DNA from: an uncultured Anaerolineae bacterium | GTDB taxonomy: Bacteria; Chloroflexota; Anaerolineae; J036; Brachytrichaceae | Assembly (NCBI GenBank): GCA_938034415.1 | Contig: CALHLE010000039.1 | Location: 1 to 58,372 of the forward strand | DNA length: 58,372 nucleotides | Direction: 5' to 3' | Shown here: piece by piece, positions 43,201-58,372 of the stretch | How the letters are laid out: each line of letters begins with the position of its first letter | How positions within the stretch are numbered: position 1 is the first letter of the stretch | The notes under the pieces: model-generated | What the model was told of the DNA's origin: nothing | Database searches by the model: none | The model's input: the letters and a program-made list of their open reading frames with translations, nothing else | Translations under genes and position numbers: made by a program

Positions 43201-45062
43201 TGGCCGCCGAACTCGGGCCGTTCCCCGGCTATGAGCGCAACCGCGAGCACATGCTGCGCGTGATCCGCAACCATCGTCGCGCCGCCTACAACGCGCCCGC
43301 GGAGGAGTATGAGGGCTTGAGCATCCCGCCGATGGGCATTGACCCCGCGCACTGCCCGCCCGACCTGCTCAAGGCGGCCCGCGAGGACGCCGACCGCATG
43401 CTGGCGCTGGGCGAGCAGCACGGCTATCGCAACGCGCAGGTCACCGTGATCGCCCCTACGGGCACCATCGGCCTGGTGATGGATTGCGACACCACCGGCA
43501 TCGAACCGGACTTCGCGCTGGTCAAGTTCAAGAAGCTGGCCGGCGGCGGCTACTTCAAGATCGTCAACCAGAGCGTGCCGCCGGCGCTGCGCCGCCTGGG
43601 CTACAGCGAAGCGCAGATCGCGGACATCGTCAAGTATGCCGCCGGGCACGGCACGCTGGTCGGATGCCCGTTCATCAACCCCGAGTCGCTCAAGGCGCGC
43701 GGTTTCACCGACGAAGCATTGGCCAAAGTCGAGGCGGCGCTGGCGACGGCCTTTGAGATTCAGTTTGCCTTCAACAAGTGGACGCTGGGTGAGGATTTTT
43801 GCAGGAACGCCCTCGGCTTCAGCGACGCGCAATTGAACGACTACAAGTTCAACATGTTGGAGGCGCTCGGCTTCAGCAAGGCCGAGATCGGCGCCGCTAA
43901 CGATTACGTGTGCGGCACGATGACCTTGGAGGGCGCGCCGCACCTGAAGGCCGAACACCTGCCGGTGTTCGACTGCGCCAACAAGTGCGGCAAGTACGGC
44001 AATCGCTTCATCTCCCCTGAAGGGCATATCTTGATGATGGCAGCGGCGCAGCCGTTCCTCAGCGGCGCGATCAGCAAGACGATCAACCTGCCTAACGAGG
44101 CCACGGTCGAGGACGTGGCGAACGCCTACATGCTGTCCTGGAAGGTCGGCCTCAAGGCCAACGCGCTGTATCGCGATGGGTCGAAGCTCAGTCAGCCGTT
44201 GAACACATCGAGCGATGAGGCCGAGGAAGCCGCTGCAGAGCTGGTGGGCGAGGCGGCTCAGCAATTGCCGGTGACGCCGCAGCAACAGCAGGTGATCGAG
44301 AAGGTCGTCGTGCGCTATCTGGCCAAGCAGCGCCGCCTGCCCAACCGGCGCACCGGCTACACGCAGAAGGCGAAGATCGGCGGCCAGAGCATCTTCCTGC
44401 GCACCGGCCAGTACGAGGACGGCACGCTGGGCGAGATCTTCATCGACATGCACAAAGAAGGCGCCGGCTTCCGCAGTTTGCTCAACTGCTTTGCCATCGC
44501 CGTATCGCTCGGCCTACAGTATGGCGTGCCGCTTGATGAGTTTGTGGATCAGTTTGTGTTCACCAAGTTCGAGCCGTCCGGCGTCGTCACCGGCAACGAT
44601 CGCATCAAGATGGCGACCAGCGTGATTGATTACATCTTCCGTGAGCTGGCCATCACCTATCTCGGTCGCGAAGACCTGGCCCACGTCGGCGCGACGGGCA
44701 CGGCGTCGGAGTCGCCTGAGCCGGAGTATCTCGACGAAGAAGTGATCAGCGAACGCGCAGCGTCGCCTACTCAGTTACGCTTGCCCGGCCGCGCCTTCAA
44801 CGATGAGACGGCGCAGCAGAACGGCCACGCGCGCGTTGGCGCGCACAAGAGGACCGACAACGGCCAAGCGGGTTTGCGGGCTGCCGGGAGCGCCTCCGCC
44901 AACGGCGTCGCGGCCGTCGCCGGCCGCAGCGAGCAGGCGCGGCTCGCGCGCCTGAAGGGCTATGAAGGCGACCCGTGTCCCGAATGCGGCGCATGGACGC
45001 TGGTGCGCAATGGAACCTGCTTGAAGTGCGAAACGTGCGGCAGCACCACCGGCTGTTCGTAA
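40212..45062 (+). CDS. nrdJ: Cobalamin-dependent class II ribonucleotide reductase NrdJ, interrupted by an intein
   Basis: The 1616-residue precursor becomes about 1211 residues after removal of a 405-residue intein (192-596). It reduces ribonucleotides using adenosylcobalamin. The first redox cysteine follows the intein (Cys597, [11 protein letters not shown]). The thiyl-radical cysteine is in NPCSEY (Cys883 in the precursor) and its redox partner in DTACNLASL (Cys894). The barrel continues through [18 protein letters not shown]. The C-terminus carries a CPECG...CLKCETCG...GCS tail that relays electrons from thioredoxin. There is no N-terminal ATP cone. It follows nrdR closely. AAAGGTG precedes the ATG. 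A long minus-strand frame across the 3' half is a codon-bias shadow. Confidence 0.96.
40785..41999 (+). mobile_element. LAGLIDADG intein in NrdJ
   Basis: The intein begins with Cys1 ([10 protein letters not shown]) after HPQPHA and ends VLVHN, followed by Cys+1 of the host protein (CFIQS). Block B is [11 protein letters not shown] and block F/G is [21 protein letters not shown], with the penultimate His and terminal Asn needed for splicing. The endonuclease has both dodecapeptides: LAGWIQGDG (precursor residues 310-318) and [10 protein letters not shown] (417-426), each with its catalytic Asp. All motifs look intact, so both splicing and homing may be active. Insertion immediately before an active-site cysteine of the reductase is a typical invulnerable target. 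Confidence 0.93.
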
Positions 45063-45101
45063 CCGGTAATGCGTCTTGATCGCCGTCCTCCTCAAAATTG
45101 C

Positions 45102-45142
45102 GGCGGGGACAAGCGCGGCTAACCCCCGCGCCCGTCCCCGCC
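45102..45142 (+). terminator. GC-rich hairpin after nrdJ
   Basis: Nested stems GGCGGGGAC / GTCCCCGCC and GCGCGG / CCGCGC lie 40 bp after nrdJ. There is no T-run. It is the last GC-rich element before composition shifts. Confidence 0.5.
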
Positions 45143-45192
45143 CGAATGCGCCGTCCTCAAACAGGAACGTGTAATAATCCCTAAGAGCAGCG

Positions 45193-45894
45193 ATGGACAT
45201 GTTTGAAGTAACGCCCAGCGCCGTCTTCGCTCATCTCTCGTCTCAGGACAAACATGGGCAAGACGACATGGGTTCGCCAAGCGCCCAATCCTTCCTCGGG
45301 GAATTAGACGCCCAAAAGCGCGGGCAAAAGATGCACGAGGCCATGTTTAGGATGTTTTATACAAACGCCGCGCTCCATAACTGGCCTTTATCTACATTGC
45401 GCGAGGGTATTGAACGATATACGCTCTACCGTGAGGCAGCGATGTCTTTTCCCCTTAATGAAAGAATATGCCTGACCGCTCGGGCAGATATCCTAGCCAT
45501 CTCCCGCGACGAAAAGCGCGCCAGAATCCTTGATTTCAAATTTCACTTTAAGACGCTGCCCAAAGACCTGCACAACAACCTATTCCAGACCATACAGGCG
45601 GATTTTTATACGATATGCTTGTGGAACGCATATCAGGAGGCCGAGGGATGGCAGGCGGATATCGCATTCGCCCATATGCTCGTCCGCGAGGAGACCCCCG
45701 TGCTGCTTTCAGTAACCAGGCGACAGGTAAGCCGGTCCGCCTTTGAAGAAAGCCTGGGTCGTATCAAGCCTTTGGCTATTCACATCTGCAACGTCCAAGA
45801 GTCCGCTGTATCGGCCCAGCCTCAACTCTCTGAAGAAGAGATGGGGCGGGTGGGGGTCGAACCCACACGCTACACAAGTAGCAGAAGATTTTAA
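45193..45894 (+). CDS. Solo PD-(D/E)XK nuclease, RecB/Cas4-like
   Basis: The 233-residue product has the RecB-family nuclease motifs in order: RGQKMHEAMFRMF (the early His motif), LTARADILAIS (motif I Asp), RILDFKFHF (D-x-K) and QTIQADFYTICLW (Q-x-x-x-Y). No helicase or Cas domain is attached and no CRISPR array is in sight. Its job is unknown; such single-domain nucleases occur in phage, defence and repair settings. The reading frame continues to 45894, so its last 17 codons are antisense to the tRNA-Leu gene (MGRVGVEPTRY is translated tRNA). The natural C-terminus may have been lost. It is the first gene of the AT-richer accessory region. Confidence 0.7.
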   Translation: MDMFEVTPSAVFAHLSSQDKHGQDDMGSPSAQSFLGELDAQKRGQKMHEAMFRMFYTNAALHNWPLSTLREGIERYTLYREAAMSFPLNERICLTARADILAISRDEKRARILDFKFHFKTLPKDLHNNLFQTIQADFYTICLWNAYQEAEGWQADIAFAHMLVREETPVLLSVTRRQVSRSAFEESLGRIKPLAIHICNVQESAVSAQPQLSEEEMGRVGVEPTRYTSSRRF

Positions 45895-45927
45895 GTCTCC
45901 GGCGTCTGCCAATTCCGCCACCGCCCC
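45842..45927 (-). tRNA. tRNA-Leu (anticodon UAA)
   Basis: Read on the minus strand the 86-base gene has a 7-bp acceptor stem (GGGGCGG / CCGCCCC), a D-arm (GCGGAATTGGCAGACGC), an anticodon stem GGAGA/TCTTC with loop CTTAAAA giving anticodon TAA, a long class II variable arm (GCTACTTGTGTAGC) and a T-arm with GGTTCGACC. The discriminator base is A; CCA is not encoded. The 3' end points toward the RecB-like nuclease gene, which overlaps it antisense. Confidence 0.95.
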
Positions 45928-46028
45928 GGAACGCGCGCCTTGAGGGAATCTAATGCCTGCGCGGTTCGTCGCCGCCTATTTTATTGCTTGTGCTTGCCAT
46001 TGCTTGTGTTTGCCCCACGGCTCACTCG

Positions 46029-46505
46029 TCATTCTTCTCTCTTGTGCCGCGAGAAAACAATTTGAGGAGAAATAACCTCGACGCGGCCGCGAAGAGATGT
46101 CATCAAGGCTTGAACGCCATTCAATCCCTCCGCCACGCCGCTTCGGTGCCGCAACCAAACGGCGGATGGAGCATAAGCCAACTCGCGGGCGATCTCATAG
46201 CCGGCCTTGTCAATCTCCTCGAAAGCCATAGACGGGGAAAATCCCTCGGCGAATTGGACGAAAATGTAGCCCGTCGCGACCGCTAATAATTCATCCCTCT
46301 GATATACCGGCAAGCCCTGCTCGCCCGCAACAAGGCGTTTTGGGAGAATGACGACCATCTGGTCGTCTAATTGGATAGGCGAGAACATGGATTGCCCTTT
46401 TGCTTGCTCCACGGGCAGGGCAATGAGGTCATTCCTTAGCGTATAAGCGGCTTGTTTATCCCTATTCTGGACGAATATCACGGGAGGGGCATCGTTTCTG
46501 AGCAT
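46029..46505 (-). CDS. Protein with fervidolysin-type (S8 propeptide-like) domain
   Basis: The 158-residue product is not a recognised whole-protein family. The C-terminal 85 residues read as a ferredoxin-like subtilase propeptide: YIFVQFAEGF at the first strand, then FEEIDKAGYEIARELAYAPSAVWLRH, a helix with GLNGVQALMTSL, and EVISPQIVFSRHKRE at the end. This fits the pattern hhVxFxxGxxxxxAxxhhxxxGxxh...VExhxPxhxh. In secreted proteases this domain inhibits and chaperones the catalytic part, but here no protease domain, signal peptide or neighbouring protease exists. The N-terminal 70 residues (VIFVQNRDKQAAYTLRNDLIALP) are unassigned. It might be a stand-alone inhibitor or a binding module. 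Confidence 0.55.
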   Translation of the reverse strand: MLRNDAPPVIFVQNRDKQAAYTLRNDLIALPVEQAKGQSMFSPIQLDDQMVVILPKRLVAGEQGLPVYQRDELLAVATGYIFVQFAEGFSPSMAFEEIDKAGYEIARELAYAPSAVWLRHRSGVAEGLNGVQALMTSLRGRVEVISPQIVFSRHKREE

Positions 46506-46664
46506 CGGGGCCTCTCTACTCTATCATCATCTAACCGCATCACCTTCACGCCCATTGTACATGTCCCTCAACGCCTGCGCATGTCCGTTGTTCGACCATC
46601 GAACACGATACGCAATAAACCCTGCGCCGTATAAAGCAGATTACCGGTTTCCCCTCCTTCTTGC

Positions 46665-46898
46665 CTATGGAGACAAAGGAGGAACGCAATAATATAAAAT
46701 TGCGGTCGCCAAAGCAATCAGGATGACGGTGCCGACCTTAGCCAAGATCGGGAACTCCATTAAACGGATGTAGTTTGCGCTCAAGATGACGCGATAAGCC
46801 GTCTTAAGCCAAAGTCCAACCACCTTCAGGAGCAAAATAGGCAGCTCCTTGAGGCTATTTAACTCGCTCGTTAAAAACTTAAAGATTAGATTGCGCAT
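46665..46898 (-). CDS. Small putative membrane protein
   Basis: A 77-residue frame with a basic amphipathic N-terminus and two hydrophobic stretches (about residues 18-40 and 50-70, ending ATAILYYCVPPLSP). No family is recognised and the ribosome-binding site is weak. It lies in a gene-poor stretch, so it may be real or chance. Confidence 0.35.
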   Translation of the reverse strand: MRNLIFKFLTSELNSLKELPILLLKVVGLWLKTAYRVILSANYIRLMEFPILAKVGTVILIALATAILYYCVPPLSP

Positions 46899-47564
46899 GA
46901 TATATATTATGCCTCATCGAGGTCGCATTTTTCGCAGCCCTGTGCCTTCACATGAGACGGTGACAGCCTTCAGCAAACCTAAGCCGGCAACAGGGGTACG
47001 ATGGTGTGATACATCCCGATCGGCGCTCCGCGCTCCTCCGCTTGACTTTATAGGAGTCACCAAAACATATCCGATTTCTAAAACACGAGGGCGCGCACAT
47101 GCACATCAAGGGGCGGATTACAACATAGACATAATAAAGACATCATTTCGCCATTCTATCTATATTCATCTTCATCCTCTCCTCGCAAGGAGGAGGCATG
47201 TCCAAAAGATGATGAAAGCGCAAGGCCAAACGCTGCCAAATCCGGTTGATGTTCTCCGATGTGTGGCATCCGAGAAGCCGCCTGTGCTTGGTCTGCGGTT
47301 ATAATGATGCATAGGCGTTGGGCAACCGTGGTTGTGACTGTTCGCAATATCGCGGCCGCAATGCCGCGCAGAATCTTAAGCGGACGACAACCGTAACTGC
47401 CCTACCTGTGGCGAGCCCGTCCGTCAGCGGCCGCATTGGAGGATCTGCTATCTGTGACAGTCAGGAAAGTTACGTCTGTCAGATACAAATGCGGTCTGCA
47501 AGACGCTTCAGGGCAAGAAGAGAATCGCGCGCATATTTGCGCACTTTCTTGATAGTAGGTTGTG
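46899..47564. other. Gene-poor stretch, first part
   Basis: No convincing gene is seen here except the decayed zinc-ribbon fragment at 47285-47457. A short CTCCTC-GCAA-GGAGGAG hairpin lies near 47180-47200. Confidence 0.5.
47285..47457 (+). pseudogene. Decayed zinc-ribbon gene fragment
   Basis: In one frame CLVCGYNDA is followed by a TAG stop, then ALGNRGCDCSQYRGRN; after a frameshift a second frame reads NCPTCGEPVRQRPHWRICYL and stops at 47457. Together these give paired cysteine motifs (CxxCG, CxC, CPxCG) like a double zinc ribbon broken by one stop and one frameshift. The intact ancestor is inferred. Confidence 0.35.
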
Positions 47565-47786
47565 ATGAGCAATAGCGAGCACTTGCGTGAGATGGTTGAT
47601 GCCACATCATCCGCGCTGGATCAGATCATCGCCGAACTAAGGAGCGCGGGCATCAGCGGCATCAGCCGCCGCGACATCGAGACGTTGCAAACTGCCGCGC
47701 AACGCTTAAGGCAAATATCCGCCCGCGTGGGTGCGACGGAAGCGCACCGCTCAACGGAACACCCTCAGAAAGGGGTATTGCGCTGA
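47565..47786 (+). CDS. Small helical hypothetical protein
   Basis: A 73-residue frame from the ATG at 47565, with a short AGG at 47557-47559 before it. The product is predicted to be two helices (LREMVDATSSALDQIIAELR and DIETLQTAAQRLRQISARVG) and a polar tail. No family is recognised. The composition looks protein-like, but there is no other support. Confidence 0.4.
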   Translation: MSNSEHLREMVDATSSALDQIIAELRSAGISGISRRDIETLQTAAQRLRQISARVGATEAHRSTEHPQKGVLR

Positions 47787-48863
47787 TCTTCCCACTCGCG
47801 CCCTGCATGCTCGCGGTTGATAGTACGGACAGGTAACGGCGTCTTAGCAACTTTCGCCGCGACAAAGCGTCGCTCCCTTTAGTGGCATGCAAGACAGGGG
47901 GGCGCACATGTGCGACGCGACATTTGGGTCAAACCCTCTTCCTGGGCGTTCCCGCGTTATAGAACCACTTGGCCCTAAGCGCGAGCGGCGAGTGTAGCGC
48001 GACGGCGCGCTTAAATGCTTGCCTCTCTCACATGTCCCTCAACTTGGAACCTCGACCGCGCATGACAAGCGGCGTCCTTCCTCTTCTGTTGTTTTTCTGT
48101 TGTTTTACCTGCACATCACGGGCTGATGGAAGTGCTCTTGGCCGGGGTAAAGGGACTCCGCACGGTGGACGTCGTTTGATGAGGTGGGGGCGTTCGCAAG
48201 CCCATCGAAGTTGAACAAGAATCGCTCGCCGCTCAAATTTTGCGTTTGCAAAATCATCTGTCTGGCAAATAGGGGCTTGGGAATTACATCGCTTGACCGG
48301 CGATGAATAGCGCAATGGTGCGCGGCGTTCGCCGCATAAATTAAACGGGCAGGGGACTGCACAACTTAAAGCGCGTCGCGAAAGATGCCGATGCGCAAGC
48401 GCAGCCCTGTTGCCGCTCGACTACGCAACTTCGTAGGCCCGGCACTTGCGAGGTCGAGATATGGCAAGCCACGTAGAGGAATGCCGGGCAAGAAGACGGG
48501 CAACAGACTTTCGTCGTGGTTGCATTGGACGATTTCGCCTCATGTTGCTGGACGTATGGGCGCATGGTATGTATGAAACGATATCGGGGGTTGGGCGGGT
48601 TTCAATTTCAAGAAGGCTCGGGACGAGGGCATACCTAAAGGACGTGATTTGGTCCTGTTTGCGTTACGGACATGCGGATGATAGGCGCGAAGGATGTGGT
48701 CGACCGGTGCGCGCGACTCAAGAAACCTGCCTAGATCCGAATAGTCATCGGTCGAGGTACAAGCACCATCCCATCGTGGGGTATCTCGGTGAGGGGGACA
48801 AGGTCATGCTTCCCGCCTGAAGGCAAGGGCGGGCTGCTGGGCAAGACGACTTGGCCTAGCAGA
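47787..48863. other. 1.1-kb stretch with no supportable gene
   Basis: Frames here are short and Arg/Cys-rich with no family motif; the longest rightward one (48446-48820, 124 codons) looks like chance or decayed coding. A 12-bp palindrome (CGCACATGTGCG, 47913-47924) and a CCCGCC...GGGCGGG hairpin at about 48815-48837, beyond the end of the leftward operon, are the only structured elements noticed. No rnpB, tmRNA or CRISPR pattern was seen. Confidence 0.5.
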
Positions 48864-49565
48864 TCAGGCCGCTTGGACGACTTGGAGGGGCGTCAGCATT
48901 TCCAGGCGATGGTCTTTTTGTGGGAGGTTGACGTGTGCGACCACTTGGCGGTCGGATAAGCGCGACGCCAGTCTTGGGGAGATAGTCGCAATATCATGCA
49001 CGTCTTGGCTTGACGTAACCAAAGTCGGAAGGCGCATTTCAAACCGGGTATCGATGATTGCGTCCACTACGTCGAGCGCCTTCTGGTTCCCCGTAATGAG
49101 CAGGTCTAGGTCGTCCAACAGGAAAGCCGGCACCTCCTGATAGGTCTGTATGACCTCTTTGATCCTACTGGGATGGGAAGAGGCGATACTGAATTTGAGG
49201 TCGTTTGCCTGAATGCCATAAACGAGCTTGCCCCCTCTGATGATTTCCCAGTACGATTCGCGCAAGATTGAGGTTTTACCACTGCCTATCGGCCCAAATA
49301 TGAAGAGGAATGGGCGCCCCGAGGCGTGATCGCCACTTATTGTCGAGTATATGAAACGACGAATTGTCTCGTAGTCGCTAAGGGCCAGATATTTTGCGAA
49401 AGGCTTACGAGTCACTGAAAAAGCAATGGAGCGGCTGCTCTTTTCGGCGGATGCTGATTCAGCCCTGGCGATGCCACTCGGGCATGCACAGAATCCTATC
49501 TGGCTGGCGTCTCTTAACAGGATATATCCCGTATCAGAGCAACGTTTGCAATTGTAGTCTTTCAT
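48864..49565 (-). CDS. DnaC/IstB-like AAA+ ATPase with N-terminal zinc motif
   Basis: The 233-residue product begins with a zinc-binding pattern (CKRCSDTGYI...GFCACPSG, four cysteines) like that of DnaC/DnaI helicase loaders. The AAA+ core has Walker A FGPIGSGKT, Walker B VPAFLLDDLDLLI, a sensor 1-like LPTLVTSSQDVHDI, and the SPRLASRLSDRQ arginine-finger box typical of DnaC/IstB. These proteins load replicative helicases or assist transposases. No replication gene or transposase is adjacent; it is the last gene of a five-gene leftward operon, 41 bp after the previous stop. Its partner is unknown. Confidence 0.78.
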   Translation of the reverse strand: MKDYNCKRCSDTGYILLRDASQIGFCACPSGIARAESASAEKSSRSIAFSVTRKPFAKYLALSDYETIRRFIYSTISGDHASGRPFLFIFGPIGSGKTSILRESYWEIIRGGKLVYGIQANDLKFSIASSHPSRIKEVIQTYQEVPAFLLDDLDLLITGNQKALDVVDAIIDTRFEMRLPTLVTSSQDVHDIATISPRLASRLSDRQVVAHVNLPQKDHRLEMLTPLQVVQAA

Positions 49566-49606
49566 ATCATCTCATTATTATAACCTATTACATTAGAAAA
49601 TAGTTA

Positions 49607-50416
49607 TCAAATTCGTTTCTCGACTAAGAATCTTGTTAATATATCTTCTCCTTGTTCATCGTTGTTGGTATTATGATATGTGTTTATATCCGTGGTGGGT
49701 TGAGGAGGAGGACTGGGTTCTGGATTCACCGCCGTTTCAGCCACCATGCCATTAACGTGCGAGAGCATGGCATCCACCGAGAGGCGCCTTCGGATAAAAC
49801 TGAGGAGGTGAAAAGAACAAACCCCTGTGTTCCGGGTTAACTGGGCAATAAAGCCGATGCATTGCTCGATAGTTTGCATCGTAAGCGTTTGATCGAGAAG
49901 GTTCCCCAACCTCTCAGCCCTCATGAGCGCGTGAATCTGGGCGAGTTCCATGCACTCCTCGCCGCTGAGGTTCAATTGTTCTTCCATCTTTGCCGCGTAT
50001 ATCGTGTCGGCTAAGTCAATTTTGGCGACCGGTTCAAAAGAAAATAGCGGACGGATTTGTTTAGGCAGTTGTCCGATATAGACCACAAGGTCATAGATCA
50101 ACGCCCATAGCCGCTCGGCTTTATACCTGATTATCAACCCCTTGATGTTTATGTTTGAAATGCGAATTAGGAGCTCAATTGACCTAAAAGCGAGGCGCTC
50201 CGCTTTCATAATCGGCTCATATCCGTAGATGTTCTCCAGATAGTCGAGCGCGGTGAATATCTCTTCAAAAGTTTTTAGGTTGTCTCCGGGGTCAAGTAAA
50301 TCCGCATACAGGCGCGCGCGCTCCGCGGTCTTGGTAATAGGCAATCGGTTTTCGCTAATCTGCCAGGTGGGGATTTTAGAGTCAAAACTCTTCCACAGGT
50401 CGCTGTAAATTCTCAT
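49607..50416 (-). CDS. Helical hypothetical protein of the accessory operon
   Basis: The 269-residue product is predicted almost entirely helical through residue 215, with AERARLYADLLDPGDNLKTFEEIFTALDYLENIYG and several AERL segments (MKAERLAFRSIELLI, RYKAERLWALIYDLV, LMRAERLGNLLDQ) spaced 35-90 residues apart. The C-terminal 50 residues are polar and Pro/Asn-rich. I do not recognise the family. It lies between the RpoA-CTD-tailed protein and the AAA+ ATPase with 41-42 bp gaps, so it is likely co-transcribed with both. The function is open; an adaptor for the ATPase is a guess from position. Confidence 0.65.
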   Translation of the reverse strand: MRIYSDLWKSFDSKIPTWQISENRLPITKTAERARLYADLLDPGDNLKTFEEIFTALDYLENIYGYEPIMKAERLAFRSIELLIRISNINIKGLIIRYKAERLWALIYDLVVYIGQLPKQIRPLFSFEPVAKIDLADTIYAAKMEEQLNLSGEECMELAQIHALMRAERLGNLLDQTLTMQTIEQCIGFIAQLTRNTGVCSFHLLSFIRRRLSVDAMLSHVNGMVAETAVNPEPSPPPQPTTDINTYHNTNNDEQGEDILTRFLVEKRI

Positions 50417-50458
50417 AGGGGCATTATAAGGCTCGATGGTCTGACTGCGCAGTTATAA

Positions 50459-51220
50459 TCAACACCGAGATGAATTTTGCTCCTTATCATTAAGAATTGC
50501 CTCAAACGCTTGGATAATCGCCGCTCGTTCCCGCTCGTCGAGGAAGATGCCCGGTTTCAATATAAAAAGGCCGTCTCTCTCGTGGTCGCGCAACGCCGCA
50601 TATAGACGGTTGATAAAAGTTATCCCGGCTTCCGCGAGCTTTCGCTTAAGCCCAATATCAAGGTGCACGTCATTTAAGGATATCGCGTCTAACTTCTTCG
50701 CCCGCTTTTTTGCATAAGCAAGATTGATCTGCTCCACGCCGGTGTAATGCGGTGTAAGGCTAAAGAGCCAGCGAAGAGAGGCGATGGCCATTTCCCTCAC
50801 TCTCTGATGGGATGGGAGAAAGACGGCATACCGGCTGAGGTCCTCAAGGGTAACTGGCTTGAGCCTTGGCCTTATCTCAATTCCCCCTAAGCTGGTCGCA
50901 TCTCCGACAGCCTCGATGATTACCTTCTCGGCCCCTTGTATATCGCGCCCAAAGAGGTCGCCTAAGCTGACCGATCTTTCTTTAATGCGCCATCCTTTAC
51001 GGATGGCCGTCGAGAGCACCGTGAAAGGGGGGGGAACGCATATGGTGAAGAATTTGTTAAAAGGAAGGCTGTCGCCAAAGATGCTCACCGCATCAAACCC
51101 GACAACGAGCGCGCCATTCCGAGATAACAACGTCGAAATCGTTAGCTCGGTCAATAACCCTAAATCCTCAAGAGTTTCGGTTGGGTCAAGGGAGTCGTTT
51201 AAAGCCCAAGTGTCAGACAT
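50459..51220 (-). CDS. Hypothetical protein with RpoA-CTD-like C-terminal segment
   Basis: The 253-residue product has an N-terminal alpha/beta part (ALVVGFDAVSIFGDSLPFNKFF, residues 37-58) and a helical middle. The last 70 residues run ISLNDVHLDIGLKRKLAEAGITF, then INRLYAAL...GIFLDERERAAIIQAFEAIL, similar in pattern to the helix-hairpin-helix fold of the RNA polymerase alpha C-terminal domain (LxLSxRxxNxLKRAGIxTVxDLL...GxKSLxEIxxxL). That suggests DNA or transcription-complex contact. No family covers the whole protein. It is the third gene of the leftward operon, 64 bp after the large helical protein. Confidence 0.65.
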   Translation of the reverse strand: MSDTWALNDSLDPTETLEDLGLLTELTISTLLSRNGALVVGFDAVSIFGDSLPFNKFFTICVPPPFTVLSTAIRKGWRIKERSVSLGDLFGRDIQGAEKVIIEAVGDATSLGGIEIRPRLKPVTLEDLSRYAVFLPSHQRVREMAIASLRWLFSLTPHYTGVEQINLAYAKKRAKKLDAISLNDVHLDIGLKRKLAEAGITFINRLYAALRDHERDGLFILKPGIFLDERERAAIIQAFEAILNDKEQNSSRC

Positions 51221-51284
51221 AAAACGTTAAAGGCGTAAATGCTCTCTTGTCATTTTCTTCATCGCCGGCTTAGTCCAATTTAGG

Positions 51285-53093
51285 CTAACGGCTTAGCGGG
51301 ATGTACTCCTCTTCATCAGGTTCATCAGGCAATTCCCACAGCACTGACAACGATAGAAAGAGAGGCTGACACAATTCAAACGGGATCGGTGCAGCGAGGA
51401 ACGCGCTCAACTTAAATTCTTTGTCCATGAGACAGAAACGATTAAACGCAGCGCCCTCTTCCGGCGACAGAATGTCAACAATGTTCACCTGGGCTTCTTC
51501 AGGCACCATACGGGCGAGCACATGAAGGGCAAGCCCGGCGAACTTTTTGATGTCTGTGACGGATATATCTTGCGCCGTCGCCACCGCATAATAGGCCGCC
51601 ATGCTGTCGGCTTCTTTGCATAACGATGACAGGAGGTCGAGTGGCATTTGATGAGTGTACCCTTGGATGTACAAATCGCGCGCAGCAGCAATGACGCGAG
51701 ATGCGCCACGGGGTTCCCACCACGTGCGAGCCTCAGCGGGGGCGCGGGAGAGGGCGACCAAGTAAGCGTCATAAGCCACAGTCCGGCAAAGGTCTAAAGA
51801 CGACGATGCCTCTGCGGATTTCTCATCATCGTCAAGCAAAGCGGCAAGCCCCACATCGTCATCTACCAGGGCGGAATATACCTGTCCGGCAAACGGCAGT
51901 TCCCCCACTTCTTTAATGCAGGCATAGACCTCATCCGGCGTGGCATGCTTGTTCAGCCAGCGGCGGACAAGCGCAACTTGCGGCGCGTTCATATCTCCTA
52001 GAAGGGGGGCGAGTTGTCTCCAGCTTTTGAAAAGCGCCAGGCGCTCATCCAAGCCGATGGCCTTGGATACGAAGTCAGGGTTAATAGATAAGAATTCAGA
52101 AAAGGCGAAGATATCAAAAATATCGACAGTCGCTCGGTCGCTTGAAGGTATATCAACCCTTCGTCCAAGACACAAATTGCACAGTGCGCGCGTAATGGGT
52201 GAAGGCAGTTTTTGTTGTAAAAACTCCAGGATGGTAAGTGTAGATGCGTGACGGATGGCCTTCACTTGCGTGTGAAGTGAAAGGGGGGCGTCGCTATCGA
52301 TCACCTTTGCTAGAACTGAAAAGGCGTCGTCCACTTCGTCTGAGGCTTCTAGGCGCAGGGACGGCAACCAGTCTAGTGAACTAAAGTGAGGCGACAAGGC
52401 GCGAAAGGCGAGGAGATAACGCCGGACCGCTTCGTCTACGGCGAGCTCCTGAAGGGGTAATTCCGACCCGCCGGCGCTCTTCCATATCCGGTATAACAGG
52501 TCGCTAGCACCGGCGTCGACTAACACGCGCCCCAACCGCGCCAATAAGTCGGGCGTAGCCGTTCGTTCCTGTTCTACGAATGCTCTGATGAGCGTTAGGA
52601 TGGCGGGAGCGGGAAGATATTGTGCGATTAGGTCATAGACCTCACCTTTGTCGCTTAGATTTTCGGCGATGATATCTGCGCGCTTGATGACCGATTCGAC
52701 CAACCGTTCTGGAGCATTTTTGGCCAAGGCGATGAAATCTTCTCGCAGTGTATCCGTTGGATGAACCACGTACACCCACGCCCTTGTCTCTGGGTTTAAG
52801 AACTCACAGATAAACTCGACCAGCCCATGATCCTTATCGATAAACCGCTCGACCGCGTAGAGCGCTTCCTCTTCAGTCAATGTGCATAATATATTAAGAC
52901 GGTCTTCCCCTTTCAGAGGTTTGGCATATAAGGCGCAAAGCAACCGCACACGAGGGGGTTGTTCTCTGATAAACGCCAAGGCGGATTCTCGACTTAACGC
53001 GGATACGCGGCGAAGAGCGGCGACGTCGCGATCGGGTAGATATTCCGCTTTAACTTGAGTCAGGCGCAACCGAGAAAAGGGAGGAAACCGCAT
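51285..53093 (-). CDS. Large all-helical hypothetical protein
   Basis: The 602-residue product is predicted to be nearly all helical, with no signal peptide or membrane segment and an acidic C-terminus (PDEPDEEEYIPLSR). Irregular helical pairs run throughout (LLARLGRVLVDAGASDLLYRIW, LYIQGYTHQMPLDLLSSLC), which could form an alpha-solenoid scaffold. No catalytic motif or named repeat is seen. It begins 18 bp after the SDR-like gene and is the largest member of the leftward operon. I do not recognise the family. Confidence 0.7.
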   Translation of the reverse strand: MRFPPFSRLRLTQVKAEYLPDRDVAALRRVSALSRESALAFIREQPPRVRLLCALYAKPLKGEDRLNILCTLTEEEALYAVERFIDKDHGLVEFICEFLNPETRAWVYVVHPTDTLREDFIALAKNAPERLVESVIKRADIIAENLSDKGEVYDLIAQYLPAPAILTLIRAFVEQERTATPDLLARLGRVLVDAGASDLLYRIWKSAGGSELPLQELAVDEAVRRYLLAFRALSPHFSSLDWLPSLRLEASDEVDDAFSVLAKVIDSDAPLSLHTQVKAIRHASTLTILEFLQQKLPSPITRALCNLCLGRRVDIPSSDRATVDIFDIFAFSEFLSINPDFVSKAIGLDERLALFKSWRQLAPLLGDMNAPQVALVRRWLNKHATPDEVYACIKEVGELPFAGQVYSALVDDDVGLAALLDDDEKSAEASSSLDLCRTVAYDAYLVALSRAPAEARTWWEPRGASRVIAAARDLYIQGYTHQMPLDLLSSLCKEADSMAAYYAVATAQDISVTDIKKFAGLALHVLARMVPEEAQVNIVDILSPEEGAAFNRFCLMDKEFKLSAFLAAPIPFELCQPLFLSLSVLWELPDEPDEEEYIPLSR

Positions 53094-53111
53094 AGGCTCG
53101 ATAAGCTGGTG

Positions 53112-54236
53112 TCACTTAATCTGCCCTGCTATCCAGGCACGAATGGCGCGTATTGTTGCGTCCCATCGGTTGATCTGCTGCGTTAGATAGGAGGGTGAAG
53201 CCGGGAGGCGTTCGATGTGTTGTTTATATTTCTCCACCATCTCGGCCGTGATGCGACGGGTGAGTTGGGTCGCATATGACCAGTCGCATGATAACTCAGC
53301 GTCAACTTCCGAGGCATTTGTAAGTGCATCATTGAGCGTAATAGGGATGCCCCTTTCGTCGTTTAATTCCTCAACGAAAGTACCAACCTTGGGGAAGGCG
53401 TCGAACTCATCACGCGCTCGGTGGGAGGCAATCGCTTGGCGCATCTCCTCCGAAATCCACCACAGAGGGTCTTCAATGAGCGATATGGCGCGAATTCGCC
53501 GAAGCAGCGATTCGCGCGATAAGTCTTGCGCTTCAGCTATTTCGATGAGCGTTGGCCCTGGCGGAGGACATATCCACGCCCGCAACGCGCGGTGAGTGGA
53601 TATGTGGGACAAAATCCCTGAGAATAAAGACGGGAATTGCAGCGAAAATAATAGTCTCAGCCTGCCGTTCGGCGAAAGCGACTTTGGCAACCAGAACCAG
53701 TGTCTTCGCTCCTTAAGGCTAGCCAAGAATGCCGGGAATCCGCTGGATAGTGGCCCGAAGATCATCGGCGTTTTTATATATAAGATAGGTTTGTTCAGAT
53801 GACGACAAACCTTCATCATTTCGTATTCTATGCGGAACGGGGAAGGGGATAATAAGCGCCTCGACTTAAAGAGATGATGATATACGGAAGATACGACAAC
53901 AACGGCTGCTGATCTGGCGATAAGGGGTTTGATGTGTTTGATGTCTTCGATTGATTGAAACTCGGGGCCAAGGAATATAATGCGGCCTTCATCGCTTGGT
54001 AGGTGATCTAATTCCGTCTCATTAAGGATGAAGCGTGCTCGTTCTTCGGATGGGATCAAGCTACCTGCGACAGCGCGGGCGAAGATGTACTCCTCTGCAT
54101 TATCGCATTTGACTTCAAAATCAGGCGCGGATGGGTCTAGGCCTTCTACGCAATTCATAGTCATGCACCTCTCTGATGAGGCATACAACAAAGCAAATCC
54201 GAGGGGATCGCTAATCTTATGTATAAAAACAGTCAT
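53112..54236 (-). CDS. Divergent NAD(P)-epimerase/SDR-like protein heading the accessory operon
   Basis: The 374-residue product has an N-terminal half patterned like an extended or atypical SDR: an opening hydrophobic strand (MTVFIHKISDPLGFALLYAS), strand AAVVVVSSVYHHLF at the catalytic Ser position, and PFRIEYEMMKVCRHLNKPILYIKTPMIFGP, which mimics the YxxSKxxxE...xxILRPxxhYGP stretch. The glycine-rich cofactor loop and the Tyr-x3-Lys pair are not preserved, so catalysis is doubtful. The C-terminal 150 residues are helical and unassigned. It is first in a five-gene leftward operon and diverges from the repeat-gene array across a very AT-rich 265-bp gap. Confidence 0.55.
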   Translation of the reverse strand: MTVFIHKISDPLGFALLYASSERCMTMNCVEGLDPSAPDFEVKCDNAEEYIFARAVAGSLIPSEERARFILNETELDHLPSDEGRIIFLGPEFQSIEDIKHIKPLIARSAAVVVVSSVYHHLFKSRRLLSPSPFRIEYEMMKVCRHLNKPILYIKTPMIFGPLSSGFPAFLASLKERRHWFWLPKSLSPNGRLRLLFSLQFPSLFSGILSHISTHRALRAWICPPPGPTLIEIAEAQDLSRESLLRRIRAISLIEDPLWWISEEMRQAIASHRARDEFDAFPKVGTFVEELNDERGIPITLNDALTNASEVDAELSCDWSYATQLTRRITAEMVEKYKQHIERLPASPSYLTQQINRWDATIRAIRAWIAGQIK

Positions 54237-54501
54237 ATTATTATTTTATCACGACTCGACCGTCGTTCATTGACCCTTAACCTTTTAACTCAAGCCGTCT
54301 AATTAGCTAAGATAAGGCGGGCACAAATATATAATGCGATTCAGATAATTAAATTAAATCTATTTTATAGTATTCACTTATTTTAATTAAGCATAAAGAG
54401 AATATTTAATATATTAGCCGTCTTGCATTTAACATTTATTCACCGACTTTTTCAATAATTGACTTTGAATCTTTCTAGCCTGAAAGCCTTATAGCTAAGA
54501 T
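54237..54501. promoter_or_regulatory. AT-rich divergent promoter region
   Basis: This 265-bp gap between the leftward operon and the repeat array is very AT-rich, with many TATAAT-like words (TATAATG, TATAGTATT, AATATTTAATATATTA). No single promoter can be assigned with confidence. Confidence 0.4.
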
Positions 54502-55060
54502 ATGCCCAAGGAACTGAAGTCCATAAGTTACGAAGAGATGCAACGCGAGTTATTGGTACGTCTTAGCATTGACGGCCGATTGCTGTGCCGGGCCATCAAG
54601 AGTTTGGCGAGAATTACCGAAGGGCTACAGTGCAATGCGTTGCGTTTTCTTAATTGGAAGGCGAATAGATGTATCACGCCACTAGGGACTGGAGGGGGGA
54701 TCACCGACGACCAACGGCGCGCGGTGTTCAACCAATTGGAAGGTGAATGGCCGTATATGTTCGGCTATGATTGGCGGGGGATCACCGACGAGCAGCGGCA
54801 TATGGCGTTCAACCGGCTTGAGAGCGAATGACTGTATTGAGCTGGCATGAAGTGGAAGGGTATAACAGACGACCATCGAATCAAGATGTTAGGCGGACTA
54901 CATGGCAATTACTTGCATCGGGCTTTAATTGAATAACCCAACATCAAACAAGAAGACGTTATTAGTTTGATCTATGACAAAAAAAATAAAACAAAATCGA
55001 ATTACTAGATTGTATTAAACCAACACCAAGCATAAATAAGTCGGAAAAGGATAAGGAATA
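54502..55060 (+). pseudogene. Repeat-protein paralogue A, inactivated
   Basis: A 109-residue frame starts MPKELKSISYEEMQ and reaches two repeats of the 27-residue family (ITDDQRRAVFNQLEGEW and ITDEQRHMAFNRLESE), then stops at 54831. The stop is TGA where the paralogues have TGG (Trp) in EGEWLY. Beyond it the homologous C-terminal cap continues (GMKWKGITDDHRIKML, PNIKQEDVISLIYD) but is broken by another TGA, a TAA again at a Trp codon, and a frameshift. The N-terminal 60 residues differ from the other copies. The noncoding tail also matches that of paralogue C. This is a decaying first member of the array. Confidence 0.8.
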
Positions 55061-55123
55061 TAAAAGGATATTTTATTTTTTAATTTAATTTCTAAAGAAA
55101 ATTAGGTCTTCTTTTCTCACATA

Positions 55124-55250
55124 CGACTTGTGTGGTGCCGTTGGCAGATGCATTTTGGGGGACGCCAAGAAGCCTTTGCTGATACTGATGCGCAATGGCA
55201 TAGGGCATATGCTTTATTTTGGGGCTTATGACTATATAACTATATAAGCC
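55124..55250 (+). promoter_or_regulatory. Conserved leader of repeat gene B
   Basis: This 127-bp stretch from CGACTTGTG to the ATG is shared with the leaders of genes C and D. It contains an inverted repeat (GTGCCGTTG 55135-55143 / CAATGGCAT 55193-55201, pairing with G-U wobbles) and ends TTTTGGGGCTTATG...TATAACTATATAAGCC directly before the ATG, with no Shine-Dalgarno. Confidence 0.7.
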
Positions 55251-56537
55251 ATGTCTAATGCTCAAGATTTCACAAGCCTCGAGGGAGAGGCTCTATACGT
55301 CGCAGGCAGGTACTGGGTGGGAATCACCGACGACATGCGGCGTTCGGAGTTCAGCCGCCTGGAGGGAGAGTGGCTGTTTGCGGCCGGCGCGTATTGGTCT
55401 GGGGTCACCGACGAGCAGCGGCGCGCAGCGTTCAGCCGGCTGGAGGGCGAATGGCTGTACAGGGCCGGCAGGGATTGGCCGGGGATCACCGACGAGCAGC
55501 GATGTGCGGCGTTCAGCCGACTTGAGGGCGAATGGCTGTACGAGGCCGGCATGGGATGGTCAGGGATCACCAACAAACAACGTTGTGAGGCATTCAGCCG
55601 ACTAGAAGGCTATTGGCTGATTGAGGCTGGCGAGAAATGGACGGGGATCACCGAAGAGCAGCGGCGCGAAGCGTTTGACCGTCTGGAGGGTAAATGGCTG
55701 TATCGCGCCGGCAAGTACTGGTCGGGAATCACCGACGACATGCGGCGTTCGGCGTTCAGCCGGCTAGAGGGCTGGTGGCTGTATGAGGCTGGCGATGATT
55801 GGTCGGGGATCACCGACGAGCAGCGACGTGCGGCGTTCAGCCGGCTGGAGGGCGAATGGTTGTACCACGCTGGCATGAGATGGACGGGGATTAACGATGA
55901 GCAGCGGCGCGAGGCGTTTGACAGGCTGGAAGGCGAATGGCTGTATCGGGCTGGCATAGAGTGGTCGGGTGTCACCGACGAGCAGCGGCGCGCAGCATTC
56001 AACCGGCTGGAGGGCGAATGGCTGTTTAAGGCTGGCTATGAATGGTTTGTGATCACCGGCGAGATGCGGCGCGAGGCGTTCAGCCGGCTTGAGGGCGAAT
56101 GGCTGTATCACGCAGGCTGGTTGTGGTCGTGGATCACCGATGAGCAGCGGCGCGAAGTGTTCGACCGACTGGAAGGCAAATGGCTGTATCTGGCCGGCTT
56201 GTATTGGCGAGGAGTTACCGATGAACAGCGGCGCGCGGCGTTCGAGCGGCTGGAGGGAGAACGGCTGTATAAGGCTGGTATGGAATGGAAGGGGATAACA
56301 GACTACCACCGAAGCAAGATGTTAGGCAAACTAAGCGGCAATTGGTTATATAAGGCTTTAGTTGAATGGCCAGGCATTAAACAAGAAGATGTGATTAGTT
56401 TGCTATATGAGGCGGACAACAAAAACAAAATCGCATTACTAAATTGCATTAAATCAATACCTCACATAAATAAATGTAAAAAATATAATAAGTCTAAAAG
56501 CGCATCTTTTAGATTTATCAATTTGATTATAAAATAA
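55251..56537 (+). CDS. 27-residue tandem-repeat protein, paralogue B (12 repeats)
   Basis: The 428-residue product consists of an N-cap (MSNAQDFTSLEGEALYVAG), twelve consecutive 27-residue repeats of the form [IV]TDEQRRAAFSRLEGEWLYxAGxxWSG, and a C-cap (ITDYHRSKMLGKLSGNWLYK, then WPGIKQEDVISLLYEADNKNK and a basic tail). Each repeat is probably two helices. The framework is nearly invariant; the residue after WLY and the pair after AG vary (A/AY, R/RD, E/MG, E/EK, R/KY, E/DD, H/MR, R/IE, K/YE, H/WL, L/LY, K/ME). No signal peptide or catalytic motif is present. The 81-bp DNA units are also very alike, GC-rich within AT-rich flanks. I do not recognise the repeat as a named family. Confidence 0.85.
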   Translation: MSNAQDFTSLEGEALYVAGRYWVGITDDMRRSEFSRLEGEWLFAAGAYWSGVTDEQRRAAFSRLEGEWLYRAGRDWPGITDEQRCAAFSRLEGEWLYEAGMGWSGITNKQRCEAFSRLEGYWLIEAGEKWTGITEEQRREAFDRLEGKWLYRAGKYWSGITDDMRRSAFSRLEGWWLYEAGDDWSGITDEQRRAAFSRLEGEWLYHAGMRWTGINDEQRREAFDRLEGEWLYRAGIEWSGVTDEQRRAAFNRLEGEWLFKAGYEWFVITGEMRREAFSRLEGEWLYHAGWLWSWITDEQRREVFDRLEGKWLYLAGLYWRGVTDEQRRAAFERLEGERLYKAGMEWKGITDYHRSKMLGKLSGNWLYKALVEWPGIKQEDVISLLYEADNKNKIALLNCIKSIPHINKCKKYNKSKSASFRFINLIIK

Positions 56538-56557
56538 TGTTATACCTTCTTTCAAAG

Positions 56558-56688
56558 CGACTTGTGCGGTTCCGTTGGCAGATGCATGCATCTGAGGAAA
56601 CATCTAAAAGTGTATGCAGATACTGGCGCGCAACGGCACAGGGCATGTGCTTTCTTTTGGGGCTTATGAGCATATAACTATACAAGCC
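56558..56688 (+). promoter_or_regulatory. Conserved leader of repeat gene C
   Basis: A 131-bp leader homologous to those of B and D. The inverted repeat is GTTCCGTTG (56569-56577) / CAACGGCAC (56631-56639), with one mismatch. It ends TTTTGGGGCTTATG, then TATAACTATACAAGCC, directly before the ATG. Confidence 0.7.
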
Positions 56689-57390
56689 ATGTCTAATGCT
56701 CAAGATTTCATAAGTCTAGAAGGCGACGCTCTATATATTGCAGGCAAGGAGTGGGAAGATATCACTGACGAGCAGCGGCGCGCAGCGTTCAGCCTATTGG
56801 AAGGCGAATGGCTGTACAAGGCCGGCTGTGATTGGTCGGGGATCACCAAAGAGATACGGCGCGCGGCATTTGGCAGACTTGAGGGCAAATGGCTTGTTGA
56901 GGCCGGCATGTCCTGGTCGGGGGTCACCGACGAGATGCGGCGCGCGGCGTTCGACCGGCTGGAGGGCAAATGGCTGTATTGTGCCGGCGTGTTGTGGTCT
57001 GGTATAACCGACGAGCAGCGGCGCGCGGAGTTCGAGCAGCTGGAGGGCCAATGGCTGTATCTGGCCGGCTTGTATTGGCGGGAAGTTACCAACGAGCAGC
57101 GGCGCGCGGTGTTCGACCGGCTGGATGGCGAATGGCTGTATAAGGCTGGTATGGAATGGAAGGGGATAACAGACTACCACCGGAGCAAGATGCTAGGCAA
57201 ACTACGCGGCGAGTGGCTATATCAGGCTTTAATGAAATGGCCCAACATCAAACAAGAAGACTTGATTAGTTTGCTCTATGATGCGAACAATAAAAACAAG
57301 ATCGCGTTATTACATTACATTGAATCAATGCTACACATAAAGTGCCCTAAAAAGGATAAGGAATATAAAATGGCATTTCCTATTTGTTAA
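56689..57390 (+). CDS. 27-residue tandem-repeat protein, paralogue C (5 repeats)
   Basis: From the ATG homologous to the other copies, the product is 233 residues: N-cap MSNAQDFISLEGDALYIAG, five 27-residue repeats, and a C-cap (ITDYHRSKMLGKLRGEWLYQ, then WPNIKQEDLISLLYDANNKNK). The three variable positions read K/CD, E/MS, C/VL, L/LY and K/ME. The last two repeats and the C-cap are close to those of paralogue B, including the L/LY and K/ME pairs, which fits recent duplication or gene conversion. Repeat number differs from B (5 against 12). An upstream in-frame ATG (56614) lies inside the conserved leader and is not used. Confidence 0.85.
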   Translation: MSNAQDFISLEGDALYIAGKEWEDITDEQRRAAFSLLEGEWLYKAGCDWSGITKEIRRAAFGRLEGKWLVEAGMSWSGVTDEMRRAAFDRLEGKWLYCAGVLWSGITDEQRRAEFEQLEGQWLYLAGLYWREVTNEQRRAVFDRLDGEWLYKAGMEWKGITDYHRSKMLGKLRGEWLYQALMKWPNIKQEDLISLLYDANNKNKIALLHYIESMLHIKCPKKDKEYKMAFPIC

Positions 57391-57428
57391 TTTAAATGAG
57401 AAATAAAATTATATCTTTTGCGCACACA

Positions 57429-57561
57429 CGACTTGTGTAGTGCCGTTTTCGGATGCATCTGGGGGCGGAACCCAAGAATCTTCTGCTGATACTGGCGCAC
57501 AACGGCACAAGGAATATGCTTTGTTTTGGGGCGTATGCCTATATATATAACTATATAAGCC
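57429..57561 (+). promoter_or_regulatory. Conserved leader of repeat gene D
   Basis: A 133-bp leader homologous to those of B and C. The inverted repeat is GTGCCGTTT (57440-57448) / CAACGGCAC (57500-57508), with eight of nine positions pairing. It ends in TTTTGGGGCGTATG and a doubled TATA box just before the ATG. Confidence 0.7.
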
Positions 57562-58372
57562 ATGTCTAACACTAAAGATTTCACGAGCCTCGAAGGGAAA
57601 GACCTGTATATCGCAGGCAAGGACTGGTCGGGAGTCACCGACGATCAGCGGCGCGATGCGTTCAGCCGACTTGAGGGAGAATGGCTGTATCGCGCCGGCT
57701 GTGACTGGAAGGGGATCACCAACAAGCAGCGGCGCGCGGCGTTTAGCCGACTTGAGGGAGAATGGCTGTATCTGGCTGGTTTTTGTTGGCCTGGGGTGAC
57801 TGCCGAGCAGCAGTGCGAGGCGTTCAGTCGGCTGGAAGGTGAATGGCTGTACAAGGCCGGCCGTGATTGGTCGGGGATCACCGACGACATGCGGCGTGCA
57901 GCATTCAGCCGGCTAGAGGGCTGGTGGCTGTATTACGCCGGCTTCCACCGAGAATGGTCGGGTGTTACCGACGAGCAGCGGCGCGAAGCGTTCGAACGTC
58001 TGGAAGGCGAATTGCTGGTTTGGGCCGGCAGATGGTGGTTGGGTGTTACTGAAAAGCAGCGACGCGCGGCATTCAACAGGCTGGAGGGTAAATGCCTGTA
58101 CGAGGCCGGTAGGTTTTGGTTGGGTGTTACCGACAAGCAGCGACGCGCGGCGTTCAACCGGCTAGAGGACGAATGGCTGTATAAGGCCGGCTGTGATTGG
58201 AAGGGGATCACCGACGAACAGCGGTGCGAGGCGCTCAGCCGGCTGGATGACTATTGGCTGTATTGGGCCAGCAAGGATTGGTCGGGGATCACCGACGAGC
58301 AGCGGCGCGCAGTGTTCGGCCGGCTGGAGGACTGTTGGCTGTTTTACGCCGGCTTCTACCGGGAATGGTCGG
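57562..58372 (+). CDS. 27-residue tandem-repeat protein, paralogue D (runs off window)
   Basis: The frame is open from the ATG at 57562 to the end of the window, giving 270 residues so far. After the N-cap (MSNTKDFTSLEGKDLYIAG) come about nine repeats. Most are 27 residues; two carry a two-residue insertion in the variable part (AGFHREWSG and AGFYREWS). Variable positions include R/CD, L/FC, K/RD, W/RW, E/RF and K/CD. The framework is slightly more eroded than in B (LDDYWLYWAS, EDCWLFYAG). The C-cap is outside the window. Confidence 0.85.
   Translation, partial: MSNTKDFTSLEGKDLYIAGKDWSGVTDDQRRDAFSRLEGEWLYRAGCDWKGITNKQRRAAFSRLEGEWLYLAGFCWPGVTAEQQCEAFSRLEGEWLYKAGRDWSGITDDMRRAAFSRLEGWWLYYAGFHREWSGVTDEQRREAFERLEGELLVWAGRWWLGVTEKQRRAAFNRLEGKCLYEAGRFWLGVTDKQRRAAFNRLEDEWLYKAGCDWKGITDEQRCEALSRLDDYWLYWASKDWSGITDEQRRAVFGRLEDCWLFYAGFYREWS

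Follow-up and report, generated by a model that had tools for sequence, protein, structure and literature searches.

A five-gene cluster encoding a DnaC-type ATPase on foreign DNA that adjoins a ribonucleotide reductase gene in an uncultured Anaerolineae bacterium

Results

Foreign DNA begins at the stop codon of a ribonucleotide reductase gene

The main new result of our analysis is the genomic context of a cluster of five genes, here called A to E, in the window (the whole 58,372-nucleotide stretch of DNA that was analyzed). The cluster resides in a segment of foreign composition that starts at the stop codon of a ribonucleotide reductase gene. The explanation that we tentatively prefer is that a real, lineage-restricted cluster is carried by a segment, at least 13.3 kb long, that was acquired laterally and inserted where the reductase gene ends, and that gene E would encode the loader-type ATPase of this element. 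The features of the window are listed below.

40212–45062, plus strand: ribonucleotide reductase gene, 1616 amino acids, conserved in the genus
44998–45079: junction, comprising the last 64 bp of the reductase gene and 18 diverged bp
45062–58372: segment of foreign composition that includes the cluster, from the reductase stop codon to the contig end
45842–45927, minus strand: second tRNA-Leu(taa) gene, on the foreign segment
Within the foreign segment: ORF of 158 amino acids
47161–47559: decayed TnpB remnant (IS200/IS605-type)
48864–49565, minus strand: gene E, 233 amino acids, DnaC/DnaI/IstB-type AAA+ ATPase
49607–50416, minus strand: gene D, 269 amino acids, orphan
50459–51220, minus strand: gene C, 253 amino acids, orphan
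51285–53093, minus strand: gene B, 602 amino acids, orphan
53112–54236, minus strand: gene A, 374 amino acids, orphan; the first gene counted from the promoter side
54237–54501: divergent intergenic stretch, GC content 0.29
54502–58372, plus strand: repeat-gene array with one decayed gene and three repeat genes

Over its first 45 kb, the window exhibits host codon usage and a GC content of approximately 0.64, versus 0.520 for the region spanning 45062 to 58372. The dinucleotide distance of this segment to the host is 0.102, a value to be compared with a mean of 0.025 and a maximum of 0.060 for 13-kb windows of host DNA. Likewise, GC3 values for the genes of the cluster range from 0.54 to 0.60, versus 0.76 to 0.83 for host genes. 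The far (right) end of the segment is unassembled, and within the 13.3 kb available (45062–58372) no gene for an integrase, relaxase, or replication initiator and no phage gene could be recognized. An earlier, sequence-only reading of this DNA had proposed a DNA-directed conflict or mobile system. The mobile half of that proposal is supported by the foreign DNA at the reductase 3′ end, which is absent in same-genus genomes, and by the 64-bp repeat described below.

Two other features of the segment bear on its origin. The tRNA-Leu(taa) gene is a second copy, 87% identical to the one on contig C12. Insertion at this gene was considered and set aside because the shift to foreign composition precedes the tRNA and coincides with the reductase stop codon. 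The TnpB remnant shares 78.6% identity with another copy, located at the end of contig C6, that matches a Cas12f1-like TNB domain. Since this relative is in the same genome, the segment appears to be resident in this lineage.

On the foreign segment, an ORF of 233 amino acids (45193–45894, plus strand) includes a stretch, RADIL…ILDFKF, that by eye resembles the core of a PD-(D/E)XK nuclease of the RecB/Cas4 type and has no profile match. The reductase gene itself appears to encode an intein, as judged from an inserted stretch that ends in VHN before a cysteine.

The end of the reductase gene is repeated on another contig

The last 64 bp of the reductase gene (44998–45061) are 100% identical to the start of contig C64 from the same assembly, where the repeated region, including the 18 diverged bp, occupies positions 1 to 82. 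After these 64 bp, C64 reads TAG and continues into a flank like that of the relatives, and TAG is likewise present in all eight same-genus genomes examined. The window reads TAA, followed by a diverged continuation that is recognizable for 18 bp. In one genome of the genus (G004) the reductase gene leads directly into C64-type genes, and in three others (G003, G006, and G001) these genes are located approximately 2.4 kb after it. The continuation of the reductase gene that is expected in the genus is carried by C64 and not by the window. Some same-genus genomes carry other sequence after the reductase gene, so that variation at this locus has more than one cause.

Contig ends elsewhere in the assembly overlap mostly by 141 bp, and thus the shared 64 bp is not a routine assembly-graph overlap. 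A repeated gene end, wherein one copy terminates in TAA and the other in TAG, is what one expects of an element that comes with a gene-end copy of its own. Most likely, the segment is an integrative element, with an attachment site that would duplicate the reductase gene end. We infer this putative attachment site from a gene end that is duplicated at two flanks, with 64 identical bp and 18 diverged bp, the right end of the element being unseen.

A chimeric contig, in which positions 45062 to 58372 come from another organism in the sample and were joined at the conserved gene end, would also be consistent with an abrupt change in composition exactly at the stop codon, with a likely host continuation that is another contig (C64), and with the lack of relatives in the class for A to D and the repeat genes. 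Nevertheless, we judge a chimera to be quite unlikely, and less likely than an insertion. The shared 64 bp are 100% identical, versus approximately 82 to 90% for same-genus copies, and a distant organism is therefore an unlikely chimera partner. The relationship of the TnpB remnant to a copy elsewhere in the genome also argues against a chimera. Even so, arguments from gene neighborhood call for caution here, as the right part of the underlying contig meets the host DNA at a sequence that is repeated.

The cluster comprises five complete coding regions

The leftward five-gene set reported by the sequence-only reading is present as five complete ORFs, separated by gaps of 41, 42, 64, and 18 bp. 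By codon statistics, the annotated frame of each gene has the best coding score when compared with the five other frames. As a control, we generated 200 random sequences with the same dinucleotide content. The frames of A and B exceed the longest open frame found in these sequences (287 codons), and the frames of C, D, and E exceed the mean longest open frame (154 codons).

Between the cluster and the divergent repeat genes is an AT-rich gap, as originally described, with a GC content of 0.29. The gap includes an imperfect direct repeat of approximately 45 bp that ends in TAGCTAAGATA, with copies at 54269–54314 and 54458–54502. Neither iterons nor a cluster of DnaA boxes, as an origin might contain, is enriched in this intergenic gap. 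Inverted repeats flanking the cluster were not found.

It is plausible that A to E form one transcription unit. Exact TATAAT boxes on the minus strand end 6 nt before the ATG of D and 11 nt before the ATG of E, and it is possible that these serve as promoter elements for separate, nearly leaderless starts within the supposed operon.

Gene E encodes a predicted helicase-loader-type ATPase

E is the only one of the five genes whose product can be assigned to a family by sequence comparison. The earlier call of a zinc-motif AAA+ ATPase of the DnaC/IstB type holds for this protein, which matches PHROG 50 (“DnaC-like helicase loader”) with an E-value of 1.7e-12 across residues 2 to 222, or near full length. 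All four of its cysteines are used to form an N-terminal CxxC…CxC motif. The AAA+ core expected of a DnaC-like loader is represented by Walker A (GPIGSGKT), Walker B (LLDD), sensor-1, and an SRL arginine-finger region, and the cysteine motif is of the zinc type that such loaders carry at the N terminus. Matches to Bac_DnaA (23.2 bits, cut-off 23) and AAA (22.1 bits, cut-off 21.2) are just above threshold, and E aligns weakly with DnaA and DnaI-type structures.

The host has its own loader, encoded on contig C13 of the same assembly, which is distinct from E. In a tree of loaders, the C13 protein clusters with other loaders from its family, and E falls outside this group, on a long branch whose placement is not settled. 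Loader genes are located near dnaB in three of three class genomes checked; E is not. No dnaB or phage initiator gene adjoins E, and A to D match no replication family. Among phages, the sole tblastn match of E is the DnaC of phage nd4 (29.5% identity over 63% of E), a protein of 235 amino acids, nearly the size of E, that is located in a replication module. The statement best supported by these comparisons is that E is a putative second helicase-loader-type ATPase, carried on a foreign element. In other families of the class, the loaders near dnaB have tandem AAA+ domains (L016:8783–10117 and L018:8751–10295).

Alternatively, E might serve as the target-selecting, IstB/TnsC-like ATPase of an IS21/Tn7-type transposition module. 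Residues 38 to 195 of E align with the IstB protein of IS5376, with a weak E-value. However, the IstB score of E is below the family cut-off (20.2 versus 24.1 bits), there is no transposase-like protein among A to D, and the cluster lacks flanking inverted repeats. We consider a transposition module very improbable.

Genes A to D are orphans

Searches of A to D against Pfam, PHROGs, PADLOC, and NCBIfam yielded nothing beyond chance, and segments of these proteins likewise matched nothing in profile libraries. No relatives of B were found in 99 close genomes and 400 genomes of the phylum, of C in 298 class genomes, or of D in 249 class genomes. The sole match of A in 396 class genomes is a stretch of 72 amino acids interrupted by four stop codons. 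Searches of plasmids with A to E, of viral contigs with A, B, C, and E, and of GTDB contigs with B (a scan reaching close relatives only) returned no relatives. Phages, which were searched with B and E, contain no relative of B. Thus far the cluster has been seen in a single genome, and it is unusual and unrelated to anything searchable.

Two resemblances that had been proposed for these proteins were not confirmed. A had been described as a degenerate SDR-like protein, but it has no Pfam match whether whole or segmented, and its score against a profile built from 24 extended SDRs is no better than the scores of shuffled sequences. C had been assigned an RpoA-CTD-like tail, but with a profile built from 30 RpoA CTDs, 170 of 300 shuffles reach the same score. 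These shuffle-test failures leave room for very remote homology. AlphaFold2 models made without an alignment are too poor to inform (pLDDT 37 for A and 32 for C), and a Foldseek search with the poor model of A gave no match at E ≤ 0.001. The description of B and D as helical proteins fares somewhat better, with hydrophobic-moment z values (2.3 for B and 2.1 for D) that weakly support it, and B is probably helical. In D, approximately 210 residues precede a stretch rich in Pro and Asn, after which comes a short C-terminal peptide, DILTRFLVEKRI.

A phage replication module in which homologues of D neighbor a DnaC gene was also considered, and was rejected because the proteins encoded around the nd4 DnaC match none of A to D.

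The divergent neighbors are hypervariable repeat proteins

The genes that diverge from the cluster encode repeats of 27 amino acids with the unit LEGEWLYxAGxxWxGITDEQRRAAFSR. Repeat positions 8, 11, 12, and 14 differ in 80 to 91% of repeat pairs. Positions 1, 6, 9, and 13 are invariant, and synonymous change is observed at positions 1, 6, and 9. The repeat genes have in common a conserved upstream stretch of approximately 100 bp and were found nowhere else in the searches made. Matches of the repeat protein to Klebsiella plasmids were examined and discounted; they fall at unannotated places beside parA and are interpreted as fortuitous translations of repetitive DNA. The pattern of variation suggests that the repeats may be modular and of a recognition type.

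These neighbors are relevant to the possibility that the cluster is DNA-directed conflict or defense cargo, wherein E would be an ATP-driven switch or loader, A to D would provide sensor, scaffold, and effector functions, and a link with the modular repeat proteins could exist. An accessory island that encodes a P-loop ATPase together with orphan proteins is what such cargo might look like, and the adjoining proteins, with four hypervariable positions in each repeat and a scaffold that is invariant, have the form expected of modular recognition proteins. However, PADLOC models match none of A to D, and the sole PADLOC match of E is to mad8, through a 30-residue Walker-A stretch (E-value 7e-4). 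Moreover, no nuclease, protease, TIR domain, or membrane effector was recognized among A to D, and the 13.3-kb segment includes no known defense gene. A conflict function is, in our estimation, unlikely, though it is the main rival to a role in replication or maintenance. The specific chain of scaffold, DNA-contact module, and loader that had been envisioned is reduced to its ATPase, as the SDR and RpoA-CTD assignments fail shuffle tests and no defense model matches A to D. The broader proposal that the five genes and the repeat array constitute one system, in which hypervariable repeat proteins pick the target and the ATPase and its orphan partners act on it, strikes us as improbable.

Discussion

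Our preferred explanation is that an unrecognized inserted element carries A to E as cargo or maintenance genes. An element with its own copy of the reductase 3′ end would integrate at that gene end. E, as the element's own helicase-loader-type ATPase, would bind ATP, and its zinc motif, along with one orphan partner, might reach DNA or the host replicative helicase. A candidate for this partner is D, the product of the gene located just upstream of E. By such activity, E could serve the replication or maintenance of the element, and the five products may co-operate. However, because no homologue of A to D was found, any function that the five genes carry out together is conjectural.

We found no system in the literature that matches the five-gene cluster, and comparisons can be made only with its parts. 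E resembles DnaC/DnaI-type loaders, including PHROG 50 members and the nd4 DnaC, in its size, its AAA+ core, and its four-cysteine N terminus. Unlike these loaders, E has no adjoining dnaB or initiator gene, is encoded behind four orphan genes, and shares approximately 30% identity with them at best.

For the proposed insertion, the available text on the SGI1 family, which uses trmE, and on dusA islands describes integration at the 3′ ends of protein-coding genes (PMC8409611). The segment is similar to these islands in that foreign DNA starts at a stop codon, with the gene end recurring at what would be the other host flank. It differs in its target, a ribonucleotide reductase gene, in the lack of a recognized integrase, and in having an unassembled far end. 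NTP-dependent conflict systems, to the extent covered by the available text of Kaur et al. 2020 (PMC7159879), also combine an NTPase with several uncharacterized partners. This likeness is one of general architecture, as none of the domains named there was detected.

If the segment is a true element, then it would represent an integrative element for which a ribonucleotide reductase gene provides the 3′ end used as target. Such an element would bring together four protein families that have no relatives in the searched collections and a DnaC-type ATPase that duplicates one of the host.
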